14,502 nucleotides of DNA. Origin: Verrucomicrobiota bacterium (lineage in GTDB: Bacteria > Verrucomicrobiota > Verrucomicrobiia > Opitutales > Opitutaceae). The notes under the pieces are model-generated. The model saw only the letters and a program-made list of their open reading frames with translations, ran no database searches and had not been told where the DNA came from. The stretch's first letter is position 1; each line of letters opens with the position of its first letter. The DNA lies in NCBI GenBank assembly GCA_030916665.1, contig JAUPWC010000185.1, positions 1-14,502 on the forward strand, given 5' to 3'. The position numbers and the translations under genes are program-made. Of the stretch, positions 6,446 through 12,620 are shown in pieces.

Positions 6446-7162
6446 ATGACTAAACGTGTGAAAATGCCCGACACAACACCAGGCATGGAGGGAGGCGCCG
6501 CGTGCATCGGCCGGGTCGTGATAGTCGAGGATCAGCGGCTCGTGGCGGAGTTCCTGCAGTTTCACTGCCGCGACCTGCGGCTTGAGGTCATGCAGCATGC
6601 GACGGGTTTTTGCGATGGTCTGGCGGCGATCCGCCAGCGCCGGCCCGACCTCGTGCTGCTCGACATCTCCCTGCCAGACGGCGACGGACTCGAGCTCGCG
6701 AAACTCGTCATCGACGAGCAGCCGCGCGTGAAGATCCTGGCGATCTCCTCGCACCACGATCCGTGGACCATGCTCCAGGTGCAGCGCATCGGCATCCACG
6801 GCTTTGTGGACAAGAACGACCAGCGGCCGGCCGTGCTTACGGAGGCGATCCACGCCGTGCTGGGCGGCCGGGTCTTCTACACGCAGATCGTGAACCAATC
6901 GAGCGCGGCGATCCGGCGCGACCCGAAGTCCTTCGTGCGCGTGCTGTCGGATTACGAGATGCGCATCCTCTCCATGATCGGCGAGTCCAAGTCGGACGAC
7001 GAAATCGCGGCCGCGCTCAACGTGGCCTCGGCGACGGTCCAGTCGCGCCGGCGCGACATCATGCGCAAGCTGGACATCCACTCCACGCCCAAGCTGATCC
7101 ACTACGCGATCGTGAACGGTCTCACCCGGGCGGAACAACTGGGCCGGAAGAAGCCAACCTAG
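6446..7162 (+). CDS. Response regulator, NarL/FixJ type (receiver plus LuxR HTH)
   Basis: A 238-residue cytoplasmic transcription regulator. The receiver domain spans about residues 22-140 with acidic pair E28/D29, phospho-acceptor D73 in VLLDISLPDGDG, S101/S102 and K123. A LuxR-type helix-turn-helix follows at about 165-226 (LSDYEMRILSMIGE, then SDDEIAAALNVASATVQSRR and KLDIHSTPKLIHYA). Start ATG 6446 is one option; ATG 6464 gives 232 residues and would also keep the whole receiver. Neither has a good Shine-Dalgarno sequence. It converges on the hybrid histidine kinase with a 41-base overlap of 3' ends (7122-7162), and is the obvious candidate for the kinase's output protein. Its target genes are unknown; the kinase's own upstream region, shared with the peptide/YcaO pair, is a reasonable guess. 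Confidence 0.9.
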   Translation: MTKRVKMPDTTPGMEGGAACIGRVVIVEDQRLVAEFLQFHCRDLRLEVMQHATGFCDGLAAIRQRRPDLVLLDISLPDGDGLELAKLVIDEQPRVKILAISSHHDPWTMLQVQRIGIHGFVDKNDQRPAVLTEAIHAVLGGRVFYTQIVNQSSAAIRRDPKSFVRVLSDYEMRILSMIGESKSDDEIAAALNVASATVQSRRRDIMRKLDIHSTPKLIHYAIVNGLTRAEQLGRKKPT

Positions 7163-10100
7163 CGCGCAGGTTGGCGAGCGCCGTGGAAAACCGCGGCCAG
7201 AACACCTGCAGCTCGGGCCAGCGCCCCTTGGCCGAATCCTCCTCCAAGCGGCGGCACAGTTCGGCGAGATCGCTCTCGCGGATGAAGTTGCAGCGACCGC
7301 AGAGCCGGTGGGCGTAATGGGCGGCGTCGGCGTTGTGCCGGTTGCGGACGGCCTCCTCCAGCAGCCCGACCTCTTCCTGCAGTTCCGCGAGGTAGAGCGC
7401 GAGTTCGTCGGCGAAGCGCACCTGCTTCTTCGTGGCGAGCAGCCGGAGGTTGGCGAGGCCGTCGGTGACGGGTGCCGGCGCGGGCTCAGCAGAGCCGTCG
7501 TCGGCGATCACCTGCGCGGCCACCAACGCCTTGCGGAGCCGCTCCTGGGTGACGGGTTTGCCGAGAAAGGAGTCCATGCCGGCCTCGCGGCACTCGCGCA
7601 TTTTCTCCGGCGTGTTGAACGCGGTGGTGGCGAAGAGGCGCGCCTTGGCGGATCCGCCGGGCAGGGCGCGGATGCCCCGGGCGACTTCGAGGCCGCTCAT
7701 CCCCGGCAGATCGTAGTCGAGGAAGGCCAGCGCGTAGTCCTGACGCGCCGCGAGCGCGAGGGCCTCGTCGCCCGTGCCGACGGCGTCGGTGGTGCAGCCG
7801 AAATTTGCGAGCAGGTCGGCGAGCACGATGCGGTTGTATTCCTGGTCGTCCACCACAAGGGCGCGGAGTCGGGCGACCGGGTTGGCGTTGCGAACGGGAG
7901 CGGCCTCGGGATCGGCCGGTTCGGGCGCGTGTTCCAGCGGGACGCTGAAGTGGAAGCACGAGCCGCGGCCGGGCTCGCTTTCGAGCCAGATGCGCCCGCC
8001 CATTTTCTCGGCGTAGCCCTTGCAGAGCGCGAGCCCGAGGCCGGTGCCGGCCACCCGCCCGCCGCGGGCGGCGGCGCCGCGCTCGAACCGGCGGAAGAGG
8101 CGCTGCTGTTCCTCGGGCGAGATGCCGGGGCCCTCGTCGGCGACCGCAAAAATCACCTCGGTGCGGTTGCCGGAGCCGGCGGACCGGCACCAGACGGTGA
8201 CCTCCACCTTGCCGCGGCCGGAAAATTTCAGGGCGTTGCTGACGAAATTCAGCAGGATCTGGCGGATGCGGCGCGGGTCGCCGCGCAGGTGGCGTGGCAC
8301 GCCGGGGGAGACCGCGATCTCCACGGGGATGAGACGTTTTTCACTGTCGGCGGCGGTCATGGCCGCCACGGAATCGACCAGCGCGTACAGGTCGAAGGGC
8401 CTGGTCTCGATCTCGACGACCCCGGCCTGCATCCTGGAAAGATCGAGCAAGTCCTCCAGCAGCGAGGACAGGTGGTCGGCGCAGGCGCGCAGCAGACCGA
8501 ATTTACGCCGGCTTTCCGGATCGAGGCCCGCGGTGGGCAGCGTCTCGGAGATGCCGATGACGCCGTTCATCGGGTTGCGGATCTCGTGGCTGACGCCGGC
8601 GAGGAACTCGTCCTTGGCGGCGTTGGCCTTGACCAGCTCGGCGGTGCGCACCTGCACGAGCCCCTCGAGTTCCACGTTGCGTTCGCGGATGCGGCGTTCG
8701 CGCAACCGGATCGTGAGCCACACGCCGAAACCGAGCGCGAGCGTGTAGCCGGCGTAGGCGAGTTTCGACCGATACCAGGGCGGCAGAATGCGGAAGGTGA
8801 ACGCGGCGGGCTCGCTGGCCTGGCCGGCGGCATTTACGACCCGCGCCTCGAAGCGATAGATGCCTTCGGAGAGGCTGGTGAACGAATAGGCCCGGCGGTC
8901 GGTGAGGGGTGACCAAGCGGTGGCGCCCTGGGCGAGTCGGGTTTGCACCTGCCACTCCCGGTCCCGCGTCGGCTGGCCCGTGAACACCCGGAGCGCCACA
9001 CGGTGCCCGTCAAACGCGAATTCCGTCCCCGCACCGGCCCGGGATGCGCTGGAGCCCGTGGTGTCGAGCCGGAGCACCGGAGCCGGCGGGGTCGCGATGA
9101 CCGGGATCGCGTCGTAGTCGAACCGCAACAATCCCTCGGTGCCACCGACCCAGAGGATCGGGCGACCCTCCTCCTCAAAAAACCGGACGACCTGCACGAG
9201 GCCGATGGAAGCCAGCGCCGGCACATCCAGTTCCTGCCAGGTGGCACGACCATCGGGGCCGAGGCTGAGCCGGCCGAGTCCCTGGTTGCCCGGATTCGAA
9301 GCGGGCAGGCCGGTGCGCTTGAAGGCCAGCACGACTTCACTTCCGCCCGTCTGGGCCGCGGCCACCAAAGGAACCCGACCGGGCAGCGGCAGCAGCGGCC
9401 GGGCCGGCAATGCGCCGGCGGGGGCCAGCACCACGTTGTCCGTGGTGAACGCGATGATGTCGTCCTGCAGGCGCACGACAACGGCCGGCCCCTTGAAGGG
9501 ATGCTGCGTGGCGGGATCGTTCAGCGCCCTGGTTTCATCGCGGGCGGGGTCGGCCACAAACACGCCTTGGCTGGCGGTGCCGACCCAGACGGAACCTTGG
9601 GAGGTTTCCGCCAGCGAACTGGCGAAATCGGGAATGCTGCCAAAACGCCGGACAGAGAAACCGGTCTCCGTGGCGGCGGGCTGCAACAGCGCCAGATTGC
9701 TGCCCTCGGAGATCAGGTAGCTTCCCGGGGCGAATCGGGACGGTTCGATCCGGTGGGCTCCCTTGGCCAGCACGCGGTAGAGCGGGGTGATGCGATCGGC
9801 GGTGGCGAGGTCAGGTCCCCCGTGCCTTCCCACGAGCAGACCGTCGGGCGTGGTGCGCAAAGCGACGTAAGAGTTGGTAAAGCGGGCGTCCCGGGTGAAG
9901 CGGGCCTCGTGTTCCGCCCCGGCTTGTAGTCGGAAAATGCCCGACCGGTTGGCCACATGGAGGCCGTTGTCCGCGGCATCAAGATCCTGCGCCCCCGCCT
10001 CCAAGCCATTGCGCGAGGCGTGAAGGGTGACGGCACCGTTCGGCTCCAGCTGAAACAACCCGTCAGACGTGACCACCCACACGGTGCCATCCGCCAGCAC

Positions 10101-11012
10101 ATCGACATTCAGGATCGACTTGGCGGCAGGGTGGGCGGTTTCGTTGATCTGCCGCAGAATTTTTCCTTCGGGCGAAAGAACGAACAACCCCTGGCTGGCG
10201 GTGCCGACATAAAGACGTCCTGCAGGGTCGCGGGCCAGGGTGGTGGGAAACCCGGCGGTGACAATCCGGTTTAGCTCGGCGGAGAAGACGGTTTCAAGGG
10301 GGGCTTCCAACCGGAAAAAGCCCTGGTTGCTCAGCGCCAGCACACCGTGATCATCCCGGACCAGATCAATTATTCCGAACGAGGGAGGCAGCCGGGTGGT
10401 TGGCATTTCCAGCTGCGGCCCTGCTTCTGTGAGACGGTAAAGACCGGTTTCGATGTGGTGGAGCCAGGACTGACCGTCAACCTTGAGGGGGAAAATCCGG
10501 GAGGCTCCCGGAAATGGCCAGATTTTGAAGGCCGTGCCGTTCCAGCCGTAGAGTTTTTTTTCGCCGAAAAAGAAAACGCTTTTCCCCGCTACGGCGCAGC
10601 CCCAAACGTGGCCGGTCTGCCGCTCCTCGAGCGGCAGGTGTTCGAGGAGGGAATGATAGACGAACCTACCGAGTGAGGGTTCGGTGAAATAGCCGATTTC
10701 ATTCAGGGCTGCGGCCCACAGCCGGCCGTCGGGCGCGGGTTCCAGCGCTCGCAGGGCCTCGCCGTGTCCGACCGGGTGGGTGATCCATTCCTGACCGTCG
10801 AACACCGAAAGCCCGGAACTGCCCACCAGCAGCCGACCGAGCGAGTCCTGGGACACAAACCAGAGGTAGGGGTGCTTGGAGCCGAGCAGGTGCGAGGACT
10901 GGAATTCCATCCGCGGCAGGCCGGCCGTTTTGTCCTGCCAGGCACCGGAAACGGAGCTGCCCAAGAGTGCGCCTAGGGTGATCGCGAAGTAAAAAAAATG
11001 TCGCTTCCGCAT
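7122..11012 (-). CDS. Hybrid sensor histidine kinase with periplasmic propeller, receiver and HPt domains
   Basis: A 1296-residue inner-membrane sensor. Domains in order: signal peptide (about 1-24); large periplasmic region with propeller-type repeats (DGRLWA, GRLYVGTASQGLF, GTVWVVTSDGLF, GSVWVGTASQGVF, PILWVGGTEGLL) to about 640; Y_Y_Y-like domain about 660-742; membrane helix about 750-770; HisKA with H809 in SHEIRNPMNG; ATPase domain with N926, DEGPG at 959-963 and GTGLGL at 989-994; receiver with D1055/D1056, D1099 and K1152; C-terminal HPt with H1235 in AHRLCGRC. All phosphorelay residues are present. The frame can begin at GTG 11042, but ATG 11012 gives a clean signal peptide and has TTGGA upstream. 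Such propeller sensors often detect saccharides in Bacteroidetes; here the DNA-binding domain is absent and the neighbouring NarL-type protein probably gives the output. It is divergent from the peptide/YcaO genes. Confidence 0.92.
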   Translation of the reverse strand: MRKRHFFYFAITLGALLGSSVSGAWQDKTAGLPRMEFQSSHLLGSKHPYLWFVSQDSLGRLLVGSSGLSVFDGQEWITHPVGHGEALRALEPAPDGRLWAAALNEIGYFTEPSLGRFVYHSLLEHLPLEERQTGHVWGCAVAGKSVFFFGEKKLYGWNGTAFKIWPFPGASRIFPLKVDGQSWLHHIETGLYRLTEAGPQLEMPTTRLPPSFGIIDLVRDDHGVLALSNQGFFRLEAPLETVFSAELNRIVTAGFPTTLARDPAGRLYVGTASQGLFVLSPEGKILRQINETAHPAAKSILNVDVLADGTVWVVTSDGLFQLEPNGAVTLHASRNGLEAGAQDLDAADNGLHVANRSGIFRLQAGAEHEARFTRDARFTNSYVALRTTPDGLLVGRHGGPDLATADRITPLYRVLAKGAHRIEPSRFAPGSYLISEGSNLALLQPAATETGFSVRRFGSIPDFASSLAETSQGSVWVGTASQGVFVADPARDETRALNDPATQHPFKGPAVVVRLQDDIIAFTTDNVVLAPAGALPARPLLPLPGRVPLVAAAQTGGSEVVLAFKRTGLPASNPGNQGLGRLSLGPDGRATWQELDVPALASIGLVQVVRFFEEEGRPILWVGGTEGLLRFDYDAIPVIATPPAPVLRLDTTGSSASRAGAGTEFAFDGHRVALRVFTGQPTRDREWQVQTRLAQGATAWSPLTDRRAYSFTSLSEGIYRFEARVVNAAGQASEPAAFTFRILPPWYRSKLAYAGYTLALGFGVWLTIRLRERRIRERNVELEGLVQVRTAELVKANAAKDEFLAGVSHEIRNPMNGVIGISETLPTAGLDPESRRKFGLLRACADHLSSLLEDLLDLSRMQAGVVEIETRPFDLYALVDSVAAMTAADSEKRLIPVEIAVSPGVPRHLRGDPRRIRQILLNFVSNALKFSGRGKVEVTVWCRSAGSGNRTEVIFAVADEGPGISPEEQQRLFRRFERGAAARGGRVAGTGLGLALCKGYAEKMGGRIWLESEPGRGSCFHFSVPLEHAPEPADPEAAPVRNANPVARLRALVVDDQEYNRIVLADLLANFGCTTDAVGTGDEALALAARQDYALAFLDYDLPGMSGLEVARGIRALPGGSAKARLFATTAFNTPEKMRECREAGMDSFLGKPVTQERLRKALVAAQVIADDGSAEPAPAPVTDGLANLRLLATKKQVRFADELALYLAELQEEVGLLEEAVRNRHNADAAHYAHRLCGRCNFIRESDLAELCRRLEEDSAKGRWPELQVFWPRFSTALANLRARLASSGPVVPPG

Positions 11013-11180
11013 GGATATTCCAAGGTAGCAAAGTCGTATCACGCAACCCGCTGCCGGGCAAAGGACATTCGCACCTTGAATTGGGTTAAAACCCGTTCGG
11101 GTAAGAGGTATTTTTTGAACTGAATAAAGGCTCTTTCCTCGATCCGGTTTGGCGGGCGCGGATGCGATACTGGGGGTGAT
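11013..11180. promoter_or_regulatory. Divergent regulatory region between the hybrid kinase and the peptide/YcaO pair
   Basis: This 168-base region separates two start codons facing away from each other and must hold the promoter of at least the peptide/YcaO unit. Two overlapping, mutually exclusive small palindromes are visible: GGGTT-aa-AACCC at 11083-11094 and ACCCG-tt-CGGGT at 11091-11102. They could be a binding site or a switching hairpin. A TTGAAC at 11115-11120 could be a -35 box, but no good -10 follows. The last nine bases, GGGGGTGAT at 11172-11180, form the ribosome binding site of the 59-codon ORF. Confidence 0.45.
11172..11180 (+). promoter_or_regulatory. Near-perfect Shine-Dalgarno sequence of the 59-codon ORF
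   Basis: GGGGGTGAT directly precedes ATG 11181. It matches the consensus GGAGGTGAT at eight of nine positions, and the exception can pair with the 16S rRNA tail through a G-U wobble. The G run sits four bases from the ATG, slightly close. It stands out because most genes in this window have weak or no Shine-Dalgarno sequence, so it suggests strong translation and supports the small ORF as a real gene. Confidence 0.7.
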
Positions 11181-11360
11181 ATGAAAAACATCACCTCATC
11201 CTTCACGGGGCTCGCTTCGAGTCTCCTTCTCAATGCCGGTTTTTCGCGGGTTGCCCAGAAATTGGATCCGGTTTCCAGCCGGCCGAGCGAATTGGCCTCC
11301 GAGGCGCACGGTCCCGCCTATTGCTTGCCGACGGGTTTCACGCCGAAGCCGCGCAAGTGA
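11181..11360 (+). CDS. 59-residue peptide, candidate RiPP precursor
   Basis: A short ORF, not similar to anything I recognise. The N-terminal half (MKNITSSFTGLASSLLLNAG, then FSRVAQKLDP) has a hydrophobic, probably helical stretch. The middle is Ser/Glu/Ala-rich, and the end, GPAYCLPTGFTPKPRK, has the only cysteine (C48), two threonines, four prolines and a basic tail. That is the leader-plus-core layout of ribosomally made, modified peptides, with YCLPTGFTP a plausible core. Support for a real gene: a near-perfect Shine-Dalgarno sequence, third-position GC of about 72 percent, and a stop codon overlapping the GTG start of a YcaO-domain gene (GTGA, 11357-11360). YcaO enzymes modify peptide backbones, so precursor is the natural reading, but it is inference. 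Alternatives are a leader peptide that only couples translation, or a small exported protein. Confidence 0.6.
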   Translation: MKNITSSFTGLASSLLLNAGFSRVAQKLDPVSSRPSELASEAHGPAYCLPTGFTPKPRK

Positions 11361-12283
11361 ACCACGGTTTCGCGAATGCTCCCATGTTCAGCCTCGCATC
11401 ATACCGTTACCGTAACGTCCTGAATGAGTCGGGCGGGCCGGTTGCCCGGTTGCAGATCGCGGACATGACAGTCTGCGGGGCGCGGGAGTTTCTCGCCACG
11501 GCCTTCCTCCGCGAAGGCCTGACGGGCAAATTGTGGCAAAGCTCCGTGTTCAGCGTCGCCGATGGCGGGGGCACCTCGCCATCGCCGATGATTGCGAGGT
11601 TCATGGCGATATCCGAGGCCATGGAGCGGTGGGCCCACTGGCAGTTGCATCAGAGTTCGGCCGGGTGTCGCTACGGTTTTGACGTGGACCCTTCGAGCAA
11701 CGGCATGGCGGCGTTCCCGGGACTCCATGCCCGACAAGCCCGGTCGGGCGCCTTGATGGAGGCGGCGGAGCGATTCAATCTGCTTCACTGGTGGGAAGGC
11801 CATCTGCCCGCGGCCGAGTCGGAAACTCCGTGGCCGGGTGTGTGCGCCGCCACGATTTGCTCCGAGGCGCCCGGCGTCACCGTTATCCTGTTCCGGCGCA
11901 CGCCCGATGGATTTGTCGCCTACGGCCATGCGGCCGCGGCAGACTATGCCGTGGCCTGCCGCAAGGCGGCCATAGAAATGGAACGTCACGCGCTCATCAT
12001 TGCGCGCTATGTGCACGCGCATGCCGGCCGGCTCGGCGAGGGATTGCCGGAGCGCGCCCATCCGATCGAGCGACGCTGTCTGTTTTTTGCCACCGAGGCC
12101 GGCCACGAGCTCTTTCTGGAACGTCTCCGGTCGTCGCCCCGGCGGTCCGCCAAGCGTCCCGAGCTGGTGTTTGACGGGGTCGTGACCGGCCCGTGGTCGC
12201 GCTACGCCGATGTTTGGCGGGTGGTCTATGCCCCGCCCAGCGACCGGTTCCTCGGCCTGGAGGAAAATTATTTCTACTGGTAA
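11357..12283 (+). CDS. Compact YcaO-domain protein, candidate peptide-modifying enzyme
   Basis: YcaO proteins use ATP to activate backbone amides, forming azolines, amidines or thioamides in peptides. This 308-residue protein shows the three expected ATP-site regions: SEAMERW (E87, E90, R91); SSNGMAAFPG at 113-122 leading to MEAAERF (E135, E138, R139) and a WW pair; and KAAIEMER at 203-210. It is shorter than usual (many are about 400 residues or more). The distance between the first two ExxER motifs is only 48 residues, and the C-terminus (LEENYFYW) lacks the proline-rich PxPxP tail of many azoline-forming members. No partner (TfuA, E1-like or Ocin-ThiF protein) is visible. Start choice: GTG 11357 overlaps the peptide stop; ATG 11384 (299 residues) and TTG 11321 also fit. 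Assignment is by motif recognition, and the specific chemistry is unknown. Confidence 0.7.
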   Translation: MNHGFANAPMFSLASYRYRNVLNESGGPVARLQIADMTVCGAREFLATAFLREGLTGKLWQSSVFSVADGGGTSPSPMIARFMAISEAMERWAHWQLHQSSAGCRYGFDVDPSSNGMAAFPGLHARQARSGALMEAAERFNLLHWWEGHLPAAESETPWPGVCAATICSEAPGVTVILFRRTPDGFVAYGHAAAADYAVACRKAAIEMERHALIIARYVHAHAGRLGEGLPERAHPIERRCLFFATEAGHELFLERLRSSPRRSAKRPELVFDGVVTGPWSRYADVWRVVYAPPSDRFLGLEENYFYW

Positions 12284-12328
12284 CGGCCACAGGCGCCGAA
12301 TGAGTCGTTCATGCGGGGGGGAATCAAA

Positions 12329-12604
12329 GGGGTCAGGCCGTTGTTTGTTGATTTTTATGCTTATCCGAGAATTTTATACGGAGCGGCAGAGCCCTTCTGC
12401 ACAGCCGGATGATATTCTGAGATAATTTATAAAATAATCTATTGAAGTTAAATACGAAAATTATTGATCAATCCAAACCAAGGGTTTGGCGATCAGGCCC
12501 TGCGGCGTTTGCAAGGTGACTGGTTGTTCAACGTGGGGCCAGAAATCGCAATTTGAGCTGGAATCAGCGGATTATGACAAATCAACAAACAACGGCCTGA
12601 CCCC
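12329..12604. mobile_element. MITE-like element with perfect 26-bp inverted ends
   Basis: A 276-bp element bounded by perfect 26-bp inverted repeats at 12329-12354 and 12579-12604, starting GGGGTCAGGCCG at the outer edge. The identity stops exactly at both ends and no target duplication is obvious. The core at about 12410-12472 is strikingly AT-rich against the surrounding GC-rich DNA. No transposase or other ORF fits inside. The GGGGTCAGG outer motif resembles sequences I associate with REP-linked IS200/IS605-type (Y1) transposases, so it may be moved by a transposase elsewhere; this is recollection, not a search. It lies 45 bases after the YcaO stop and 16 bases before the AraC stop, between convergent genes, and would form a long stem in transcripts from either side. 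Confidence 0.8.
12465..12495. repeat. Interrupted hairpin inside the MITE-like element
   Basis: TGATC (12465-12469) pairs with GATCA (12491-12495), and after a small internal loop CCAAACC (12473-12479) pairs with GGTTTGG (12483-12489) around a 3-base AAG loop. A subterminal hairpin with an internal mismatch is the kind of structure single-strand (Y1) transposases can recognise. It could also act as a weak terminator, but no T-run follows. Confidence 0.5.
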
Positions 12605-12620
12605 ATTGCAGAGAAGTCGC

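Follow-up and report, generated by a model that had tools for sequence, protein, structure and literature searches.

A YcaO gene, its candidate RiPP precursor and a propeller-sensor kinase in a putative peptide-signalling locus of Verrucomicrobiota

Introduction

Most known peptide pheromone systems come from Gram-positive bacteria. In ComQXPA of Bacillus, a modifying enzyme, a variable short precursor, a membrane histidine kinase, and a NarL/LuxR-type regulator are encoded together. The hybrid two-component systems (HTCS) of Bacteroides have a fused C-terminal DNA-binding domain and sense glycans, and Cys, Ser, and Thr are the residues that cyclodehydration can use in peptide substrates. One account of ComQXPA diversity describes ComA as its least diverse component (PMC4008528), and one report on bufferins describes their precursors as carrying Sec signals (PMC12452194).

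The window, that is, the whole 14,502-nucleotide stretch of DNA analysed (contig JAUPWC010000185.1), comes from a relative of Lacunisphaera. Its initial annotation singled out a 59-residue ORF and an adjoining YcaO-domain gene as a minimal candidate RiPP locus that may be undescribed. In keeping with the latter suggestion, no description of such a peptide-YcaO-kinase system was found in the open-access literature searched, subscription papers being outside that search.

Conservation and organisation of the locus

The loci compared were 92 distinct ones (45 plus 80 named loci, less 33 sharing identical last 200 residues). The set of 45 consisted of the window and 44 relatives, with the fragment match G036:C61 left out, and the 80 named loci were those kept out of 101 confirmed. 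A YcaO homologue was present in 41 of 142 genomes of relatives, the window's own genome included, and in 14 of 387 genomes of a phylum-wide draw, all 14 from the same order. The named YcaO loci belong to Opitutaceae, Opitutales, or wider Verrucomicrobiota, apart from one record labelled merely 'bacterium'. Four genomes (G004, G042, G043, and G122) carry two full-length YcaO homologues each, which suggests more than one channel per cell.

The conserved unit was found to be larger than the pair first described, and to include a sensor kinase and usually a response regulator:

6464..7162, plus strand: LuxR/NarL-type response regulator, 232 aa (Pfam Response_reg and GerE)
7122..11012, minus strand: hybrid histidine kinase, about 1290 aa (Pfam domains; residues 1-802 modelled)
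11181..11360, plus strand: candidate RiPP precursor, 59 aa (ORF call, homologues, pN/pS, and the upstream ORF of relatives)
11384..12283, plus strand: stand-alone YcaO enzyme, 299 aa, with a conserved ATG start (start clustering, AlphaFold model, Pfam matches of relatives, and structure alignment)

A kinase gene lies directly upstream of the peptide-YcaO pair, and divergent from it, in 87 of the 92 loci. The exceptions are L019, L141, and L150 (less than 300 nt of upstream sequence), L118 (1.8 kb), and L070, where the pair is present with no kinase within 7.4 kb. In 65 of 92 loci, a relative of the regulator is encoded beyond the kinase, at its far end. Of the 27 loci without one there, 19 have less than 4.9 kb of sequence upstream; a regulator match is located downstream instead in L061, L064, L168, and L174. 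The two-gene locus was rejected on these counts. Clustering of the neighbours of the 45-locus set returned no other cluster of more than 10 loci, and the 10-locus cluster is antisense to YcaO; neither a dedicated exporter nor a protease was identified among clusters of more than 10 of the 45 loci.

The kinase is composed of an N-terminal helix, a propeller-type ectodomain, an Ig-like domain, a TM helix, and HisKA, HATPase, receiver, and Hpt domains. Its start is presumed to be ATG 11012, the listed ORF opening at GTG 11042. The model of the ectodomain (residues 1-802; pLDDT 86.8) aligns over about 660 residues with the Bacteroides sensors BT3049 and BT4663. In the structure search with this model, the best match and most others were unrelated WD40-type propellers covering one propeller, and the BT3049 and BT4663 HTCS sensors were the matches that covered most of the model. 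Between the window and G017, identity is 92% in the regulator, 82% in the kinase half, and 76% in YcaO, compared with 44.5% in the sensor half.

The YcaO enzyme and its start codon

That the larger ORF of the pair encodes a YcaO-like protein is borne out by Pfam matches of the family and by an AlphaFold model. The window protein scores 22.1 bits against Pfam PF02624, below the curated cut-off of 25.7, and 59 of 65 family members match PF02624 at E <= 0.01. The best alignments of the model (pLDDT 94) are with solved YcaO-domain proteins, and the window enzyme has, as modelled, the YcaO fold. A sequence search of the PDB using a YcaO profile gave no match. Across 65 sequences E78 is invariant, and E81, R82, E126, E129, R130, E198, and R201 are nearly so. 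Thus, the acidic and Arg positions of the three motifs initially assigned to the ATP site, here a putative one, are near-invariant.

11357..11359, plus strand: GTG proposed earlier as the YcaO start, probably unused (start codons and lengths of relatives)

Similarly, the GTGA overlap initially described between the two genes holds only in part. The TGA of the 59-codon ORF (11358-11360) does overlap an in-frame GTG at 11357, but this GTG is probably not the real start of YcaO, which is more plausibly ATG 11384. The start codons of YcaO relatives cluster at window position 11384, several relatives have no start codon farther upstream than its equivalent, and lengths among the 120 of 789 relatives listed are 295-303 aa, with the exception of P0041 (327 aa). 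By script, an ATG (76) or GTG (4) lies at most three codons before the conserved first motif in 80 of 92 loci, and three more were found by eye. GTG 11357 was rejected on the clustering and on the relatives' starts and lengths. The family alignments had been trimmed to codon 11384 and therefore give no independent support for that start. With YcaO starting at ATG 11384, the two genes would be separated by a gap of 23 nt and would not overlap.

The precursor peptide

Two parts can be recognised in the 59-residue peptide:

11181..11270, plus strand: conserved leader, residues 1-30, signal-peptide-like
11304..11339, plus strand: presumed core, residues 42-53 (AHGPAYCLPTGF), with T51 at a Cys/Ser/Thr-only position and F53 as a conserved Phe; the exact ends of the core are likewise presumed

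The small ORF is genuine and its conservation is above chance. Of 25 candidate homologues of the window peptide, 22 were confirmed, the best being 80% identical over the full length, and all 22 are annotated only as hypothetical or unnamed proteins. A related short ORF precedes YcaO in 90 of the 92 homologous loci (Verrucomicrobiota), which contradicts the possibility, raised at the outset, that YcaO homologues consistently lack it. The two loci without a precursor are L063, one of the two YcaO copies of G042 and a true miss, and L150, with 10 nt of upstream sequence only. Precursors were assigned by rules and by inspection; for about a dozen of the 90, the leader similarity is weak and the assignment was made by eye. 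The precursor ends 255-733 nt before YcaO in L058, L164, and L118, and that of L060 extends into masked bases. In L118 and L046, two tandem precursor-like ORFs precede YcaO; the ORF nearer to YcaO has no Cys near its C-terminus and the farther one has.

The short upstream ORFs consist of a hydrophobic leader and a variable tail in which Cys is usually present. By crude rules, a basic n-region, a hydrophobic core, and a small-x-small site are found in 80, 74, and 79 of 87 precursors, respectively. The window leader is borderline hydrophobic, with a best 12-mer mean of 1.31, compared with more than 1.6 in 74 of the 87 precursors. In 11 close sequences, with synonymous sites near saturation, pN/pS is 0.49 in the leader and 0.87 in the tail. 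Codon-level conservation, on which the initial annotation had also made its peptide depend, is thus present in the leader, and is likewise seen in repeat copies that differ mostly synonymously (L060 excepted).

Repeated cores occur in eight loci (L037, L038, L039, L044, L058, L062, L164, and L169), and a ninth (L060) has a degenerate core pair. For instance, the L037 precursor contains five identical 12-residue copies of KSSAFSELPCQF whose codons differ only synonymously, and L058 and L164 contain three GCAQLPCYHRDF copies apiece. Totalled over pairs of copies, the synonymous/nonsynonymous codon differences are 50/0 in L037, 17/3 in L038, 11/2 in L169, 9/1 in L062, 6/2 in L044, and 9/4 in three of the four L039 copies; the two L060 repeats differ mostly nonsynonymously (4/14). 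Judged by these codon differences, the repeated cores are under purifying selection, and the 50/0 count of L037 is not accounted for by chance and drift.

A second regularity of the core concerns the residue two before the conserved Phe. In 32 close homologues it was scored by script as C in 21, S in 7, T in 3, and G in 1. The G, in L040, is an anchoring artefact: a Thr precedes its core Phe by two, so the position is Cys, Ser, or Thr in 32 of 32, and these three residues together make up 26% of tail residues. Because the 32 homologues are kin, no probability was put on this pattern. A Cys/Ser/Thr-only position is what an azoline-forming YcaO would need, although it would also fit (thio)lactone formation; an azoline is, by a narrow judgement, the product we favour. 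Cys is absent from 8 of 87 tails, CxxPC occurs in 27 of 87, and at least two Cys in 54 of 87. The distant group L059/L060/L062 has a different core without the usual Cys motif, either of EQPPGVPPxPGGGIIIK type (L062, duplicated) or with an IIIR ending. Taken with the tails that lack Cys and the nonsynonymous repeats of L060, these cores mean that one chemistry may not fit all members.

Overall, the small ORF and the YcaO-like gene very probably represent a RiPP precursor and its enzyme. The initial reading of the peptide as the YcaO substrate gains support, and we infer the same from their co-occurrence and from the Cys/Ser/Thr-only core position.

Upstream signals

Two features upstream of the precursor are relevant to its expression:

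11073..11086, unstranded: ACC-N8-GGT palindrome (ACCTTGAATTGGGT), NarL-like, 108 nt ahead of the precursor ATG; presumed to be bound by the response regulator
11166..11171, plus strand: -10-like hexamer GATACT, 9 nt before the precursor ATG, putative promoter element

The near-perfect Shine-Dalgarno sequence remarked on initially is not conserved. Among 12 close sequences (the window and 11 relatives), the SD rule found a match in the window only, and SD was rejected as a conserved feature of the precursor. A loose -10-like hexamer is located 5-10 nt before the precursor ATG in 10 of the same 12. In the whole set of 86 upstream regions, an SD-like match was found in 17 and the hexamer in 20 (shuffle mean 2.8). 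This pattern suggests a near-leaderless precursor mRNA in the close group only.

In close relatives, ACC-N8-GGT lies at -103 to -108. Of the 85 upstream regions counted (out of 87), 41 contain it no more than 200 nt from the precursor ATG, compared with 3 of 85 for a control pattern and with a mean of 3.06 and a maximum of 8 of 85 in 100 shuffles; the exact motif is absent from 44 of the 85. In 38 of the 41 motif loci, the sites fall into three bands with a spacing of about 22 bp (near -64, -86, and -106); L054 has a site in each of them. The best-palindrome score is only modestly above shuffles (6.62 vs 6.03; best shuffle 6.31), and the argument rests on the motif counts.

Palindromes of the TACCGG type were counted in 12 genomes, 8 of them chosen for having this type; 7 of the 12 contain 1-8 sites, and the backwards control occurs once in one genome and in none of the others. 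In G035 and G047, the single genomic TACCGG-type palindrome is located at the precursor. The sites elsewhere in G084, G043, G026, G005, and G016 are mixed. In L082, L093, L095, and L096, TACCGG-type palindromes also lie 87-156 bp before ORFs that by eye resemble response regulators, a hint of a cascade. For CACCT-type sites, 11 genomes were searched and 10 sites were read, three of them in the window's genome; no regulated genes were identified at these sites, and many of those read lie within ORFs.

Loci without the peptide-YcaO pair

Close relatives share a chromosomal site with the order RsmD, RsmE, regulator, kinase, (peptide-YcaO), tRNA-Gly, PilC, where RsmD, RsmE, and PilC are the names that we assume for the Pfam Cons_hypoth95, Methyltrans_RNA, and T2SSF proteins. 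PilC lies beyond YcaO in 7 of 10 pair-bearing loci. The window differs on that side: tRNA-Gly and PilC are absent downstream of its YcaO, and no tRNA was found in the whole window. Just downstream of YcaO, at 12325-12608, is a 284-bp element with 30-bp inverted ends that are 97% complementary; the same end sequence is also present on three further contigs of this genome.

At the RsmE-regulator site, a full kinase is present in all ten loci with the pair. Of the eight pair-less loci at the same site, two have the full kinase (G003 and G009), five have a kinase without the propeller, and one has no kinase (Fisher p 0.0015 for pair versus full kinase, phylogeny ignored). This co-loss reflects some three or four separate events. 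The five short kinase ORFs are 606-631 codons long and align only from about residue 740 of the window kinase; Pfam found no propeller in the three tested. The contigs of L199 and L200 break off close to the start of the kinase, and the genomes concerned have no YcaO match; G005, G016, and G047 have another cassette elsewhere in the genome. That the propeller tends to be missing together with the signal genes points to a sensor that reads the peptide signal.

The pair-less loci were found through regulator and kinase searches, and the presence of the regulator in them is therefore by selection. In 11 same-genus genomes without a YcaO match, a regulator at least 70% identical was found in 5 only. 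The receiver-only loci of G003 (L194) and G009 (L195) have the full kinase and the regulator without peptide or YcaO, and G009 keeps a CACCT-type palindrome. As kinase and regulator survive in some pair-less genomes, the pathway seems to have targets beyond the cluster.

Discussion

The arrangement described above is probably, in our judgement, a four-gene autoregulated peptide-signalling circuit built on YcaO in a Gram-negative host. Translation of the precursor would, in this group, probably start on a near-leaderless mRNA. The YcaO enzyme, which stands alone as a single domain and lacks an RRE, would then recognise the leader and modify the tail at the expense of ATP, with an azoline formed from the conserved Cys/Ser/Thr as the most likely product. 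The peptide so modified would be exported, probably by Sec via the signal-peptide-like leader, and trimmed, after which the adjacent hybrid kinase would bind it with its periplasmic propeller sensor. Phosphate would then be relayed by way of the receiver and Hpt domains, and the LuxR/NarL-type regulator that receives it would bind ACC-N8-GGT palindromes before the precursor gene and elsewhere.

Two-component systems are usual beside biosynthetic genes, and variable cores and multi-core precursors, both found here, also occur in antibacterial RiPPs. The peptide might accordingly be exported as a RiPP effector, for example an antibacterial of narrow spectrum, with the kinase and regulator only switching on its genes, possibly by lantibiotic-like autoinduction. 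However, some same-genus genomes that lack YcaO keep the regulator (5 of 11) and a kinase, which suggests that the pathway also serves other functions. In addition, no further gene is found in more than 10 of 45 loci, so there is no widely conserved immunity, transporter, or protease gene. An effector is thus unlikely.

Less likely again is a bufferin-like RiPP that has CxxPC-type cores and binds metal in the periplasm, paired with a kinase that senses metal or a metal-peptide complex. The frequency of CxxPC and of multiple Cys in the tails, together with the signal-peptide-like leader, would suit such a role, but in close homologues the conserved position can hold Ser or Thr in place of Cys, the tails are variable and some lack Cys altogether, and the sensor resembles those of HTCS.

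One report describes DbfQ as a periplasmic partner of DbfRS (PMC12714742). By that precedent, and given the conserved neighbourhood, the short protein could be an unmodified periplasmic partner of the kinase, with YcaO acting on something else. We consider this very unlikely, because the short ORF precedes YcaO in nearly every locus, and because repeated cores and a position restricted to Cys, Ser, or Thr are features that suggest a substrate of an enzyme. Finally, a chance short ORF beside a YcaO gene that acts alone can practically be dismissed: although the ORF is short and a Pfam and NCBIfam search with it gave no match, homologues, purifying selection, and linkage contradict it.

The signalling circuit thus remains our preferred reading. 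By the slightest of leanings, and from comparative genomics, we would go further and place the locus in a new class of peptide quorum sensing in Gram-negative Verrucomicrobiota, with a YcaO-built pheromone, a propeller-kinase sensor, signal and sensor that diverge in the manner of pherotypes, and strains that naturally lack the signal or the sensor. If true, a YcaO-modified and probably Sec-exported signal would add to the chemistry of cell-cell signalling, HTCS-like sensors would gain a new kind of ligand, and a little-studied lineage would gain a testable communication system. Multi-core precursors, and strains without the signal genes, the sensor, or both, make the system directly testable.

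Comparison with known systems

Compared with other stand-alone YcaO RiPP enzymes, the enzyme here is a single 299-aa domain without a widely conserved partner gene beside it, and it is associated with a signal-peptide-like leader and a linked sensor kinase. Linear azole peptides of the SagBCD type involve an RRE/E1-like partner and a dehydrogenase; here the enzyme has a single domain, and besides kinase and regulator no third gene accompanies the pair in more than 10 of 45 loci. In the 45-locus clustering, YcaO has no widely conserved TfuA-type neighbour such as would recall thioamitides.

Bufferins and other RiPPs with Sec signals, as described in one report (PMC12452194), resemble the present peptides in the signal-peptide-like leader and Cys-containing tail. 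In contrast, the adjacent enzyme is a YcaO here and an MNIO in bufferins, Cys is replaceable by Ser or Thr, and a kinase and regulator are linked. The Bacteroides HTCS BT3049 and BT4663 likewise have a propeller and Ig-like periplasmic sensor on a hybrid kinase. However, the kinase here ends in Hpt with no DNA-binding domain found by Pfam, and GerE is located in the separate LuxR-type regulator.

ComQXPA resembles the locus in its set of co-encoded components, and also in which part varies least: the regulator in the window and G017, and ComA in the account cited above (PMC4008528). The differences lie in the chemistry and the sensor. YcaO here takes the place of the ComQ isoprenyl transferase, there is no conserved C-terminal Trp (the window precursor has no Trp), and a hybrid kinase with a periplasmic propeller sensor is encoded by divergent genes in Verrucomicrobiota.
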